Below, piece by piece: positions 808-8,270 of a DNA stretch of 20,570 bases (its first letter is position 1; every line of letters begins with the position of its first letter). The DNA is taken from IMG/VR virus record IMGVR_UViG_3300028392_000341, positions 1 to 20,570 of that record; one strand, given 5' to 3'. The notes below the pieces were generated by a model, which worked only from the letters and a program-made list of their open reading frames with translations, was not told where the DNA came from and ran no database searches. The DNA is from a virus. A program made the position numbers and the translations under genes.

Positions 808-836
808 GAACTTATCGAATCCGTTTCGATTTGTTC
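808..836 (+). repeat. 29-bp dispersed palindrome, copy a
   Basis: Left arm GAACTTATCGAA (808-819), spacer TCCGT, right arm TTCGATTTGTTC (825-836). It lies in the 5' untranslated region of the P1 transcript, about 30 bases after the predicted start and just before the ribosome site of the next gene. It is one of six copies of a 12-5-12 arrangement in the first 8.3 kb. Confidence 0.85.
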
Positions 837-853
837 AATCAAGGAGGTAGATT

Positions 854-1138
854 ATGTTTACTCAGAAAGTACAAGAATACGATGATGTTGGAGGCGCAGC
901 GCCTTCAGCAAACTTCGACTGGCGTGCGTGCGTTCACTGCGGTGACGATGTGCGCGTGGAGCGTTGGAACTTAGGTTTCAAACTCTGCATGATGTGCGGG
1001 GAAGATTCCGCACTTGCCGAGCGTGCCTCATGGTGCGTGGTGCAACCATACGGCAAGGGTCCGTATATGCTCGTAACGGTGGAGTCTGCACCACAGACTT
1101 TGCTCGACACGAATCAGAAAAACACCCGTTCGAACTAA
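854..1138 (+). CDS. Zinc-ribbon hypothetical protein
   Basis: A 94-residue protein, first gene after P1, with a perfect AAGGAGG ribosome site (841-847) before ATG 854. Two CxxC pairs (C26/C29 and C45/C48) separated by 15 residues form a probable zinc ribbon. The C-terminal part contains YGKGPYMLV and a TNQKNTR tail. Such ribbons occur in nucleic-acid-binding and protein-contact factors, but no activity can be assigned. The TAA stop (1136-1138) lies inside palindrome copy b. The GTG/ATG starts in other frames nearby have worse ribosome sites. Confidence 0.85.
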   Translation: MFTQKVQEYDDVGGAAPSANFDWRACVHCGDDVRVERWNLGFKLCMMCGEDSALAERASWCVVQPYGKGPYMLVTVESAPQTLLDTNQKNTRSN

Positions 1139-1160
1139 TCGAATTCATTTCGCTTTGTTC
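1132..1160 (+). repeat. 29-bp dispersed palindrome, copy b
   Basis: Left arm GAACTAATCGAA (1132-1143), spacer TTCAT, right arm TTCGCTTTGTTC (1149-1160). The left arm supplies the stop codon of the zinc-ribbon gene. The site sits 32 bases before the ATPase start codon. GTTCGAAC (1128-1135) also overlaps its left end. Confidence 0.85.
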
Positions 1161-1192
1161 TTTTTCATCCTCACTTATCTAGGAAAAACCAA

Positions 1193-2269
1193 ATGTCAGA
1201 ACTATCTTTTAACCGCCGTATCAACTTCAACGAAGCGGTGGACTTGCTCATCAACAGCGGGCATAACTCAATACACCTTACTGGAGAACCCGGAGTTGGT
1301 AAGACCGCGATCCAAGATGTGATCGTAGCGAAGACCGGCTACCACAAGGTGTATATCGACGGACCTAACACCGATGTGGGTCAAGCGGGTATGCCTATTC
1401 CCAATCATACGACGCGCACCTTGGACTTCTACCCTGCGGAGAACTTCAAGTTGCATCTCAACGAACCATGCGTAATCATGATCGACGAGTGGACAAAGAC
1501 CGATGACTATGTGCGCAATACGCTACACCCACTGCTACACGAGCGTCGCATGAGTGATCGTTATCTGCATCCTGAGTCGATTGTCTTTACTACTGGTAAC
1601 AACGATGCCGATGGTGTCGGTGATCATGCCAAGGCGCATACTCGTAATCGTCAGACATGGATGACTTACATGAAACCAACTGCAGACGAGTGGCTAGTGT
1701 GGGCGGGCAATGCGGGCGTGGCACCTGAGATTCAAGCGTGGGTCAAGGAGTATCCGCATAGCATGGCGTCGTACATGGACGGCGGACAGAAAGAAAATCC
1801 GTACATCTTCAACCCAACGGACGCGAGTCAGACTGCGTTCTTCTCGCCTCGCTCTGCGTTCAAGGCGTCGCATTGGGTCAATGTCCGTCATAGTATTTCA
1901 GAGAATGCGTTGATCTGTGCGCTGGACGGCACTATTGGCATCTCTGCATCGCGTGATCTGCAAGCATACATCTCGTTGTCGGACCAGCTCCCAACGCGTG
2001 AGTCCATCGAGTCATCGCCCGATACAGCACCGATACCGACTAGCCCTGCGGCTCTTTGTATTCTTGCTTTCAAGGGTGTGATGGTGTGTACCCGTGAGTC
2101 GTTCGCGGTGTGGTTGCGCTATGTCAAGCGTATGCCTAAAGAGACGCAAGCCGTCTTTATCAATTCTCTCTTAGAGATCAGCGCTAAGAAGCAGTGGGCT
2201 ATGGCGCACCCATCGTTCGTGACATGGGCTCGCGAGAACCAGTACATGTTCGCAGGATTGAAAGGCTAA
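1193..2269 (+). CDS. MoxR/CobS-like AAA+ ATPase
   Basis: A 358-residue AAA+ ATPase. Visible motifs are Walker A GEPGVGKT (31-38), Walker B CVIMIDEW (93-100) and sensor-1-like VFTTGNN (131-137), followed by arginines at 151 and 153 that may include the finger. The NTDVGQAGMPIP stretch (59-70) matches the MoxR/CobS style, where the ATPase remodels a partner that carries a VWA domain. A VWA protein is encoded 700 bases downstream, supporting that pairing. Start ATG 1193 has AGGA 8 bases upstream. The C-terminal 180 residues are alpha-helical and not assignable. Related phage proteins are often labelled CobS, but there is no sign of cobalamin synthesis here. The cytoplasmic substrate is unknown. 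Confidence 0.88.
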   Translation: MSELSFNRRINFNEAVDLLINSGHNSIHLTGEPGVGKTAIQDVIVAKTGYHKVYIDGPNTDVGQAGMPIPNHTTRTLDFYPAENFKLHLNEPCVIMIDEWTKTDDYVRNTLHPLLHERRMSDRYLHPESIVFTTGNNDADGVGDHAKAHTRNRQTWMTYMKPTADEWLVWAGNAGVAPEIQAWVKEYPHSMASYMDGGQKENPYIFNPTDASQTAFFSPRSAFKASHWVNVRHSISENALICALDGTIGISASRDLQAYISLSDQLPTRESIESSPDTAPIPTSPAALCILAFKGVMVCTRESFAVWLRYVKRMPKETQAVFINSLLEISAKKQWAMAHPSFVTWARENQYMFAGLKG

Positions 2270-2271
2270 TC

Positions 2272-2403
2272 ATGACACCAACACAATTTTTGGTAGTAAT
2301 TGGGACTATTTGGATAGCGCCCCATGTAAACAAATACTACGCCCAAATAACAGGGTCAATCATCATTTGTATTGCCGCTTGTAAAGGATTGGGTTGGATA
2401 TGA
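2272..2403 (+). CDS. Tiny probable membrane protein
   Basis: A 43-residue ORF beginning MTPTQFLVV with two hydrophobic stretches (about residues 4-16 and 27-42), so it may be a small inner-membrane protein. It starts two bases after the ATPase stop, and its TGA overlaps the next ATG (ATGA). A longer in-frame start at 2194 would sit inside the ATPase gene and is unlikely. Function unknown. Confidence 0.55.
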   Translation: MTPTQFLVVIGTIWIAPHVNKYYAQITGSIIICIAACKGLGWI

Positions 2404-7036: not shown

Positions 7037-7046
7037 GGAGATAGAT

Positions 7047-7304
7047 ATGAAATATTACATAGGCGAAATACATGAGCGTAATGGCGATATGGAGTACGAC
7101 ACAAAGTACGTGTTCGCAACAAAGAAAAACCCCGACAAGTACACCGACAAGGTGGCTATGGAGTGGCGCGGTGGCGATAAGGGCGATTGGGACGAGCAAG
7201 AAGACGCCTACTGGTCTGATACCTCGCTCATCTTTGACTCAGGTAGCACCGAGATACCCAAAGAAGACTTTGAGGTATTGAAGAAGTATTTAACAATTCT
7301 ATAA
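7047..7304 (+). CDS. Small acidic hypothetical protein
   Basis: An 85-residue protein starting MKYYIGEIHERNG. AAGGAGA (7035-7041) lies six bases before ATG. The protein is rich in Asp, Glu, Trp and Tyr (GDWDEQEDAYWSD around residues 46-58) and seems alpha/beta. Tight spacing on both sides (10 and 11 bases) places it in the operon. No motif is recognised. Confidence 0.75.
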   Translation: MKYYIGEIHERNGDMEYDTKYVFATKKNPDKYTDKVAMEWRGGDKGDWDEQEDAYWSDTSLIFDSGSTEIPKEDFEVLKKYLTIL

Positions 7305-7315
7305 GAAGGAATAGC

Positions 7316-8185
7316 ATGACTGCATTTGTAAACATTCGCATGACAGGCGAGAAGGTATTGGTCGACCCGCATCTCAAGGTGCTAGTCGATAGGCTGATAA
7401 TGCTCAACCCGAAACTTGTGTTCACCCAACCTAAGCAGGTTAGTGAGTATGAGTACGACGTGTCTTTTACTTTTGCCAAGGCCAAAGAAAAGCACAAAGC
7501 TCCCGACGATGCTAAATACGTCCGCACTATGTCTGTATACGAAGACAACGAGAAGGTAGGCGTTGTCGGCGTAGATCAAGACAGTAGGGGTGACGAAGGG
7601 TTTATCTACACCGTGTCAAACTGGCGGATAGATAAGGCTCGCGGGCGACGCAATACTACTACGACTAAGAAGATGGATGTAGCGATACGCGAGTGTAAGA
7701 AAACATTCAAGAAGCGCAACATCCTAGAGTTGTACGAGAAGGGGTATGACGAAGCAACGGTAGCGTGTAACCGCGCGAGTCGTGATCTAACTAGCCCTAT
7801 CTCTAACTCGCAACTACTACGCAACAGCACGAGTGTTCAGCTAGTAGCCTACTGCATGGCGAATGATCTACCGTTCGACCACAAAGAATTGGTTGATACG
7901 CACGGCAAACTCAAGTCTCAAGAGTATGGCGAAGCCGTGGACAAATACTTACTGGCTATGGAGGTATCACGCGCTGACAAAATGGCTGTGATTGATGTAG
8001 GCGGTAGGTTCGCATACAGGACTATGCTCGAGGGGGAGTCCGATGTTCAACTGGTAACCAAGGAGTACGAAGAGTTACCGCAGATCATGCAGGACAAGAT
8101 TGCGGTCCTACAACTTATGCAGGACAACGAGATGGTTAGGAATGTAGGCTTCCGAGCAAAAGCTGGTGTGTTCTTAATTATCTAA
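7316..8185 (+). CDS. Hypothetical protein, 289 residues
   Basis: Last gene of the P1 unit, starting MTAFVNIRMTGEK, with AGAAGGAA before ATG 7316. The N-terminal 110 residues look alpha/beta. A Lys/Arg/Thr-rich segment (about 103-135) includes RGRRNTTTTKKMD, and the C-terminal half is helical. No membrane segment or catalytic motif is visible. It stops 25 bases before the intrinsic terminator. Function unknown; structural or nucleic-acid roles are both possible. Confidence 0.82.
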   Translation: MTAFVNIRMTGEKVLVDPHLKVLVDRLIMLNPKLVFTQPKQVSEYEYDVSFTFAKAKEKHKAPDDAKYVRTMSVYEDNEKVGVVGVDQDSRGDEGFIYTVSNWRIDKARGRRNTTTTKKMDVAIRECKKTFKKRNILELYEKGYDEATVACNRASRDLTSPISNSQLLRNSTSVQLVAYCMANDLPFDHKELVDTHGKLKSQEYGEAVDKYLLAMEVSRADKMAVIDVGGRFAYRTMLEGESDVQLVTKEYEELPQIMQDKIAVLQLMQDNEMVRNVGFRAKAGVFLII

Positions 8186-8209
8186 TAACAACTTATAGTA
8201 TCTATTCAC

Positions 8210-8235
8210 GACCCGCCAAGTGCGGGTCTTTTTTT
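8210..8235 (+). terminator. Intrinsic (rho-independent) terminator
   Basis: Perfect 7-bp stem GACCCGC (8210-8216) / GCGGGTC (8222-8228) with a 5-base loop, followed by seven T residues (8229-8235). It ends the transcription unit that begins at P1 and separates it from P2. Confidence 0.95.
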
Positions 8236-8241
8236 GTCTGC

Positions 8242-8270
8242 GAACAAATCGAAACTAATTCGATATGTTC
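8242..8270 (+). repeat. 29-bp dispersed palindrome, copy f (between terminator and P2)
   Basis: Left arm GAACAAATCGAA (8242-8253), spacer ACTAA, right arm TTCGATATGTTC (8259-8270). With one mismatch it is the most symmetric of the six copies. It lies in the only true intergenic region here, after the terminator and 34 bases upstream of the P2 -35 box. It is the last copy in the window. Confidence 0.88.

Follow-up and report, generated by a model that had tools for sequence, protein, structure and literature searches.

What purpose is served by 29-bp near-palindromes scattered among the genes of a virus? The 20,570-nt stretch analyzed here (positions 1 to 20,570 of IMG/VR virus record IMGVR_UViG_3300028392_000341, hereafter the window) carries seven of them, at 808, 1132, 2532, 3519, 5027, 6109, and 8242, each matching the half-site pattern GAACWWATCGAA-N5-TTCGATWWGTTC in a fixed 12-5-12 layout with at most three mismatches over 29 bp. 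An initial annotation had claimed six copies; these lie exactly where it placed them, and its counts over their 12 half-sites are correct (GAA constant, C at position 4 in 11/12, always A or T at positions 5 and 6, T at position 8 in 9/12, CGAA constant). Its total was one short, as it overlooked the copy at 3519-3547 (GAACAAAACGAAAAGGTTTCGGAAAGTTC), which has three mismatches and one half-site that reads T7 and C8. The spacers are unlike between copies. At the same threshold, 100 dinucleotide-preserving shuffles of the window gave no match, compared to seven in the real sequence. A relaxed pattern found the same seven sites alone (shuffles: mean 0.78, maximum 5), and the pattern read backward had no match in the 20,570 bases.

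We propose that the sites are operators of a dimeric phage protein, encoded by the first early gene, that acts on transcription as a stoperator-like roadblock. As the best overall explanation, this reading has a probability of roughly 0.5 in our estimate.

The arms of the sites carry a dimer-like signature. At half-site position 5, complementarity between arms is 0.48 compared to 0.59 in shuffled partners, and at position 6, it is 0.40 compared to 0.55. The deficit at these positions reflects avoidance of T in both arms at once (3 cases at position 5 and 1 at position 6, against about 10 and 11 expected by hand calculation from the same table). Judged from the sequences, this is the pattern expected from selection on summed dimer affinity and not from pairing. 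These statistics support the earlier suggestions of a dimeric DNA-binding protein, itself a prediction, and of arms that are not kept by RNA pairing. Further, a site within the DUF2201 gene is kept at about the same place (residues 165-198) in two reading frames, frame 1 in 16 records (GTKRKGFGKF, GTNQPSVGKFG) and frame 0 in 10 (EQTDGESGSSD), suggesting that the constraint acts on DNA. Coding constraint, raised at the outset as a possible cause of the conservation, is ruled out by the two frames. We consider it very probable that the array is real, functional, and read at the DNA level by a phage-encoded dimer.

To place the sites in a wider context, relatives were collected by an exact scan of IMG/VR, de novo palindrome clustering in polA relatives, and pattern scans for the class B and C spellings given below (G and L numbers are our labels for records). 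Among 49 records scanned with record-specific matrices, at least two sites were found in 30, one in 4, and none in 15, for a total of 192 placements at 137 distinct sites in 34 records. Whole-record scans gave 9 sites in G001 (42,968 bp), 11 in G005, and 8 in G003. We note that the 30 records include four near-duplicate pairs (G027/G029, G032/L106, G026/L075, and G023/L076) and that, of the siteless records, L023 and L041 are parts of G012 and G014, and L016 and L022 are short pieces hardly covering the region. The sites are retained in close relatives, where their complete loss would have spoken against the initial annotation. A mirror-pattern control matched nothing in the 30 multi-site records, counter to the equal match density in unrelated sequence that the same annotation had named as a refuting outcome.

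The layout is common to all sites, and the core is spelled in three ways: TCGAA in class A, CCGAC in class B (GAAC..CCGACA-N3-TGTCGG..GTTC), and CCAAC in class C (GAAC..CCAACA-N3-TGTTGG..GTTC). Each of the 30 multi-site records contains a single class, bar one unclassed half-site in L102; the first-pass pattern permitted mixtures, and the later rounds, with each record's own matrix, favored uniformity. The single spelling in each record indicates that all sites switch together. In 11/11 long records, all sites fall within arcs of 5.9-10.3 kb, and the ten sites of G013 (63,605 bp) occupy 10.3 kb across the record ends, if the record is circular. The shared respelling of all copies suggests that a phage protein may bind them to control genes as a set.

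Which protein might this be? Our candidate is the product of the first early gene, a protein of about 237 amino acids (aa) of no known family that is encoded outside the window (12808-13521 in G003; in the relative G005, some 3 kb before the first base of the window). We compared site-motif distance with protein distance, controlling for background genes, for families present in at least 10 records. With true start codons, which were used so that translated 5′ untranslated region (UTR) could not mislead the value, the first-gene protein gave a raw r of 0.68 and a partial r of 0.67 (15 records, 0/2000 permutations); the partial r before this correction was 0.65. On 12-15 of the same records, the partial r was 0.42 for an HNH-like protein, 0.30 for a 363-aa protein, 0.14 for a 289-aa protein, 0.12 for a ribbon-helix-helix (RHH)-like protein, and 0.05 for polA.

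Particular residues of the first-gene protein also follow the class. The class A protein carries WE[AD]AIKEL; its counterparts in classes B and C show two arginine residues there (e.g., WERAINRI). Class C proteins have QSP (4/4) where those of A and B have RP (11/11), and three proteins otherwise nearer class C (G010, G025, and G027) nevertheless combine RP with class B sites. In an AlphaFold2 (AF2) model (predicted local distance difference test, pLDDT, 81.9; predicted template modeling score, pTM, 0.46), the class-linked residues fall in helix 110-128 and the following loop.

Protein and sites also occur together at a distance. On the 12.8-kb contig L102, four class B sites surround a remote homolog of the first-gene protein, which scored E 1.3e-6 against a profile from which it had been left out. 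One of these sites lies about 97 bp ahead of the homolog's start, and none of 11 other families sought was found on the contig. A search based solely on the protein returned 31 loci, with nine unseen contigs; all three with at least 2 kb downstream carry such palindromes, and the remaining six stop within 0.6 kb, too soon to be judged. In the parts examined of siteless polA relatives, the protein was not found, and no relatives were found in annotated phages. Of 73 candidate stretches in genome_contigs, none was confirmed, and the single match among PDB sequences had an E value of 0.057. On L190, one of these three contigs, a first-gene homolog lies beside palindromes of a fourth spelling, AATTATCGACA-N3-TGTCGAT (4467, 5420, and 6003), in which the outer part is changed. 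We give the first early gene product about an even chance of being the binder.

The positions of the sites relative to genes and promoters, all on the plus strand in the window, point to what the bound protein may do. Site 1 (808-836; like the others, class A) lies in the 5′ UTR of a gene for a 94-aa zinc-ribbon-like protein (854-1138, Pfam match under the cut-off), with its start 39 bp past the -10 element of promoter P1 (741-769, TTGACA-17-TATAAT, 12/12 match). Site 2 (1132-1160) is 61 bp ahead of the start of a gene for a MoxR-like AAA ATPase (1193-2269, PF07728), and site 3 (2532-2560) lies within a small open reading frame (ORF, 2394-2711). The weakest copy, site 4 (3519-3547), is carried by the gene for a DUF2201 metallopeptidase/VWA protein (2975-4252), and site 5 (5027-5055) overlaps the stop codon of the gene for the 53-aa RHH-like protein (4872-5033, recognized by eye, without a significant Pfam or PHROG match). 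Site 6 (6109-6137) is at the 3′ end of the gene for the fast-evolving 363-aa protein (5050-6141, no family match), directly ahead of a DUF3150-like gene (6164-7036, under the Pfam cut-off). After the gene for the likewise fast-evolving 289-aa protein (7316-8185, with just weak matches to PHROGs of unknown function), a terminator-like stem (8210-8228) closes the site-bearing unit. Site 7 (8242-8270) lies between this terminator and a weak P2-like promoter match (8305-8333, 9/12), 803 bp ahead of the family A DNA polymerase gene polA (9045-10871), our anchor for comparing relatives. Matches of 9/12 are no commoner than in shuffles. A 10/12 promoter-like match, weaker than P1, at 5054-5082 overlaps the final two bases of site 5.

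Much of this geometry recurs. A site lies 53-69 bp ahead of the moxR match in 19 of the 24 records that hold moxR and its upstream DNA, 683-874 bp ahead of polA in 21/23 records, and 63-73 bp ahead of the first-gene start in 8/21 sequences. Across 170 distinct contexts, which come from related records and so are not independent, promoter-like matches of at least 10/12 end 26-75 bp before a site in 22 cases (about 0.9 expected) and lie 75-99 bp past a site start in 16 (0.44 expected). The promoter-linked sites are just past strong promoters or ahead of the polA-side promoter, and the hexamers are left uncovered.

We hypothesize that the sites are DNA operators through which a phage-encoded homodimer, or dimer of dimers, controls the early transcription unit, which we call early on the strength of its replication genes and promoters. 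One dimer would read two half-sites of 12-13 bp, with the outer AAC common to the three classes and the inner positions 8, 10, and 12 providing lineage specificity. The sites would stand in the way of RNA polymerase: some about 30-50 bp past the predicted start point of strong promoters, others at gene junctions (about 45-70 bp ahead of start codons), within coding stretches, or separating the terminator from P2. Given this placement, the protein most likely slows or stops elongation as its concentration rises. It would also block re-entry at P2 and so silence or time the block in the manner of a stoperator. The first early gene product, as the most likely binder, would limit itself through the site ahead of its own start. 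Stoperator-like control of the early block seems to us slightly more probable than not.

Several observations weigh against this proposal. At P2, the sites precede the promoter and would suit activation too, and silencing would serve no obvious purpose in a lytic phage. No site was detected at the moxR place in G023, G032, G034, G035, and G037, the last site lies farther from polA in G009 and G024, and 13/21 first-gene sequences have no site 63-73 bp ahead of the start. The window's own record is without the first gene, and we infer its presence from close relatives. Other families covary with the sites too, including a 54-aa ORF family found in just 13 of the records tested (partial r 0.79), a late gene (0.58), a DUF3310-helix-turn-helix (HTH) protein (0.18-0.44, depending on the member set), the HNH-like protein (0.40-0.42), and the 363-aa protein (0.23-0.38); the covariation test therefore points to the first-gene protein but does not prove it. 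Within class B (nine records), the first-gene value is 0.41, and the Mantel set left out L106, G029, L075, L076, L102, and G009. At the class-linked R, L167 has W and yet one putative site with the core CGAC, and L102 has K. Finally, the first-gene AF2 model had no significant fold match in PDB or viral structures, which does not by itself show a new fold.

The alternative that survives best is that another protein of the same module, whether RHH-like, HNH-like, 289-aa, or 363-aa, binds the sites with the same operator function, a possibility that we regard as unlikely. Among the records examined, all four are restricted, or almost restricted, to phages with sites. The RHH-like gene is present in 27/30 multi-site records, the distant G024 among them (of the other three, G003 stops short of the locus, L076 spans just 6 kb, and L102 is without the module), and a site overlaps its stop codon in class A and in some of class B. 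The HNH-like protein covaries to the degree given above, and the 289-aa and 363-aa proteins drop sharply in similarity between close relatives of different class. However, the predicted DNA-contact strand of the RHH-like protein, a family assignment made by eye, is the same in G000 (A) and G008 (B) and nearly so in G027 (B) and G015 (C), its partial r is -0.13 and 0.12, and an RHH-family match also occurs in siteless L028; an RHH protein, suggested at first as a possible binder, thus finds no support as the one that tells the spellings apart. The partial r of the 289-aa protein is -0.03 and 0.14, the HNH-like protein of G003 (A) is nearer to that of G013 (B) than to those of G001 and G005 (A), and none of the four proteins was found in L102, itself a fragment.

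Other candidates were also weighed. The 289-aa protein was rejected as first structural candidate, as its AF2 model had no significant fold match (best VIA match 5oqm_d: Z 5.5, root-mean-square deviation 3.4, 87 aligned; a YjbR entry: Z 4.9, deviation 3.8, 86 aligned), and its R112-to-Q change in class C is no telltale, since Q also occurs in G024, of class B. HTH81 is present in siteless relatives and has a partial r of -0.17. The DUF3310-HTH protein is likewise found in siteless relatives, and its helix does not follow the class by eye, but with a partial r of up to 0.44 it may yet be a binder. A host operator was rejected after class B and C scans of genome_contigs gave five loci, each with a single exact match that carried G or C in at least one A/T position; further copies were absent within the roughly 8 kb examined, bar two with four mismatches in L159. 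A host factor may still be what binds the site.

Two side observations concern these proteins. The 363-aa and 289-aa proteins are about 50% identical between phages whose DUF3150, moxR, and polA proteins are 82-96% identical, which suggests rapid turnover as far as sequence comparison can tell. The early protein encoded at L047:14715-15380 and its homologs carry a CVNPxHH motif that we take to be HNH-like, and they apparently lack the first catalytic histidines (weak PHROG endonuclease match, E 0.13). Among the records examined, this family was seen just in those with sites.

Rather than silencing, the bound protein could activate or insulate, by recruiting or stabilizing polymerase, looping the early block, or activating P2 from upstream. 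The P2 site, about 67-95 bp upstream of the predicted start in 16 contexts, fits such a role, and the multi-site layout suits looping, but most sites follow promoters or sit within genes, positions from which classical activation does not operate, and we regard this explanation as improbable. Considerably less probable still are centromere-like or DNA-organizing sites, which would serve as marks for partition, condensation, or packaging. In phage N15, several dispersed inverted repeats act as partition sites, which need SopA and SopB, and several dispersed palindromes in one region of a phage genome recall that arrangement. Searches of seven records (three of them 63-66 kb; all may be incomplete) gave no match to ParA PF13614, ParB PF02195, tyrosine integrase PF00589, or resolvase PF00239, other ParA families not having been sought, and the set distances to promoters and genes suit transcription control better. 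The initial comparison to N15-type sites is therefore not borne out. Recombination sites were also rejected: core sites of tyrosine recombinases have identical spacers, those here are unlike, and no recombinase was found in the seven records. RNA hairpins or conserved protein segments are already largely refuted and almost certainly not the answer: transcription of most sites is probable and many fall in coding sequence, but one copy lies between terminator and promoter, Rfam gave no match in the window at the gathering threshold, and the two reading frames and the arms described above do not fit them.

How does the proposed operator array compare to known systems? L5-type stoperators are 13-bp, asymmetric sites in short intergenic regions or gene termini, oriented with transcription and bound by a monomeric repressor of temperate phages that carry an integrase or parABS, and their motif varies between relatives together with the repressor (PMC6550527, PMC9283540). 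The sites described here are similar in their many dispersed copies in the path of transcription, at set places before moxR and past P1 and some inside genes, and in a motif that differs between relatives as a set. The motif here covaries with the first-gene protein, the putative regulator. The sites differ in being 29-bp palindromes with dimer-like statistics, in being confined to 5.9-10.3 kb of the long records where L5 sites are genome-wide, and in occurring in phages of which seven records, possibly incomplete, gave no match to the lysogeny and partition families named above. The stoperator likeness first noted thus holds for dispersal, path, and class variation and fails for the L5 type: by position and class variation, the sites work like stoperators, and they are not of L5 type because they are symmetric and local.

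The nearest precedent is phage Corndog (Cluster O). It has 34 dispersed TGTTCGG-N3-CCGAACA palindromes, intergenic and within genes, with a predicted dimeric binder, no integrase or parAB, and unknown function; they are genome-wide and denser at the right end, and the authors, with four near promoters, regard control of transcription initiation as unlikely (PMC4351075). In common with Corndog, the phages here carry dispersed dyad-symmetric repeats and, in the seven records, no detected lysogeny genes. Unlike in Corndog, for which the available text describes neither, there is class switching and a covarying protein, and the Corndog palindrome has no match in the window at up to three mismatches. 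The lytic T1-like phages Stevie and TLS have dispersed, mainly intergenic 22-bp repeats, which the authors liken to stoperators (PMC4319613, PMC11447400); these are oriented with transcription, and Stevie's are described as asymmetric, whereas ours are palindromes. Stoperators have also been suggested for the asymmetric motifs of cyanophage N-1. The site reported here did not appear among the literature-search results listed.

Other palindrome families came to light along the way. Rhizobium phage RHph_TM3_14A (MN988472.1; L157, L156, and L158) is a cultured distant relative with an array of its own, 42 GTTACCT-N4-AGGTAAC palindromes dispersed across its entire 60.9-kb genome (mirror control 0), several of them in gaps between annotated genes (e.g., at 2067, 5843, 8332, 10658, and 19177). 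Among polA relatives without the 29-bp site, we found TTGACA-N3-TGTCAA in L042 (15 copies), TTCCTAC-N2-GTAGGAA in the early 8 kb of G014 (7), TCCTCATACCGGTATGAGGA in L040 (5), and TTGTAACA-N-TGTTACAA in L032 and L033 (4 and 5; mirror control 2). In the 38.8 of 64.1 kb examined of KPP25, no palindrome family appeared at the settings used. The window itself holds a second perfect sigma-70-type promoter (17030-17059) that has 19 bases in common with P1 (ACTTGACAAAGTCTAATTT) and no 29-bp site nearby.

From their gene content, the site-bearing phages look lytic, with the reservation that the records may be incomplete. Across 61 of the 85 ORFs of G013, terminase, capsid, lysozyme, polA, helicase, and nuclease families are among the Pfam matches listed. 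One of 28 scanned ORFs in this record (also labeled L052) matches the Rap1a immunity family (PF18602, E 2.5e-13).

Taken further, and only tentatively, the operators and their candidate binder could form a self-limiting system in lytic-looking phages, in which an unclassified first-early-gene family shuts off or times the early block by obstructing elongation and recognizes the scattered palindrome through an arginine-based code. In this code, RP would read G at half-site position 10, and the two arginines of WERAINRI would read the G opposite C at position 12. Specificity would have switched at least twice, giving immunity-like groups without lysogeny.

Dispersed operators that act on elongation are well known from temperate actinobacteriophages. 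For lytic phages, the available portions of the literature describe the repeats of Corndog and the T1-like phages without a known function. The 30 related records add natural specificity switches at all sites at once, a set promoter geometry, and a concrete candidate protein, and therefore both the binder and its action are directly testable. If true, our proposal would add a protein family and an array-based form of early-gene control outside lysogeny.

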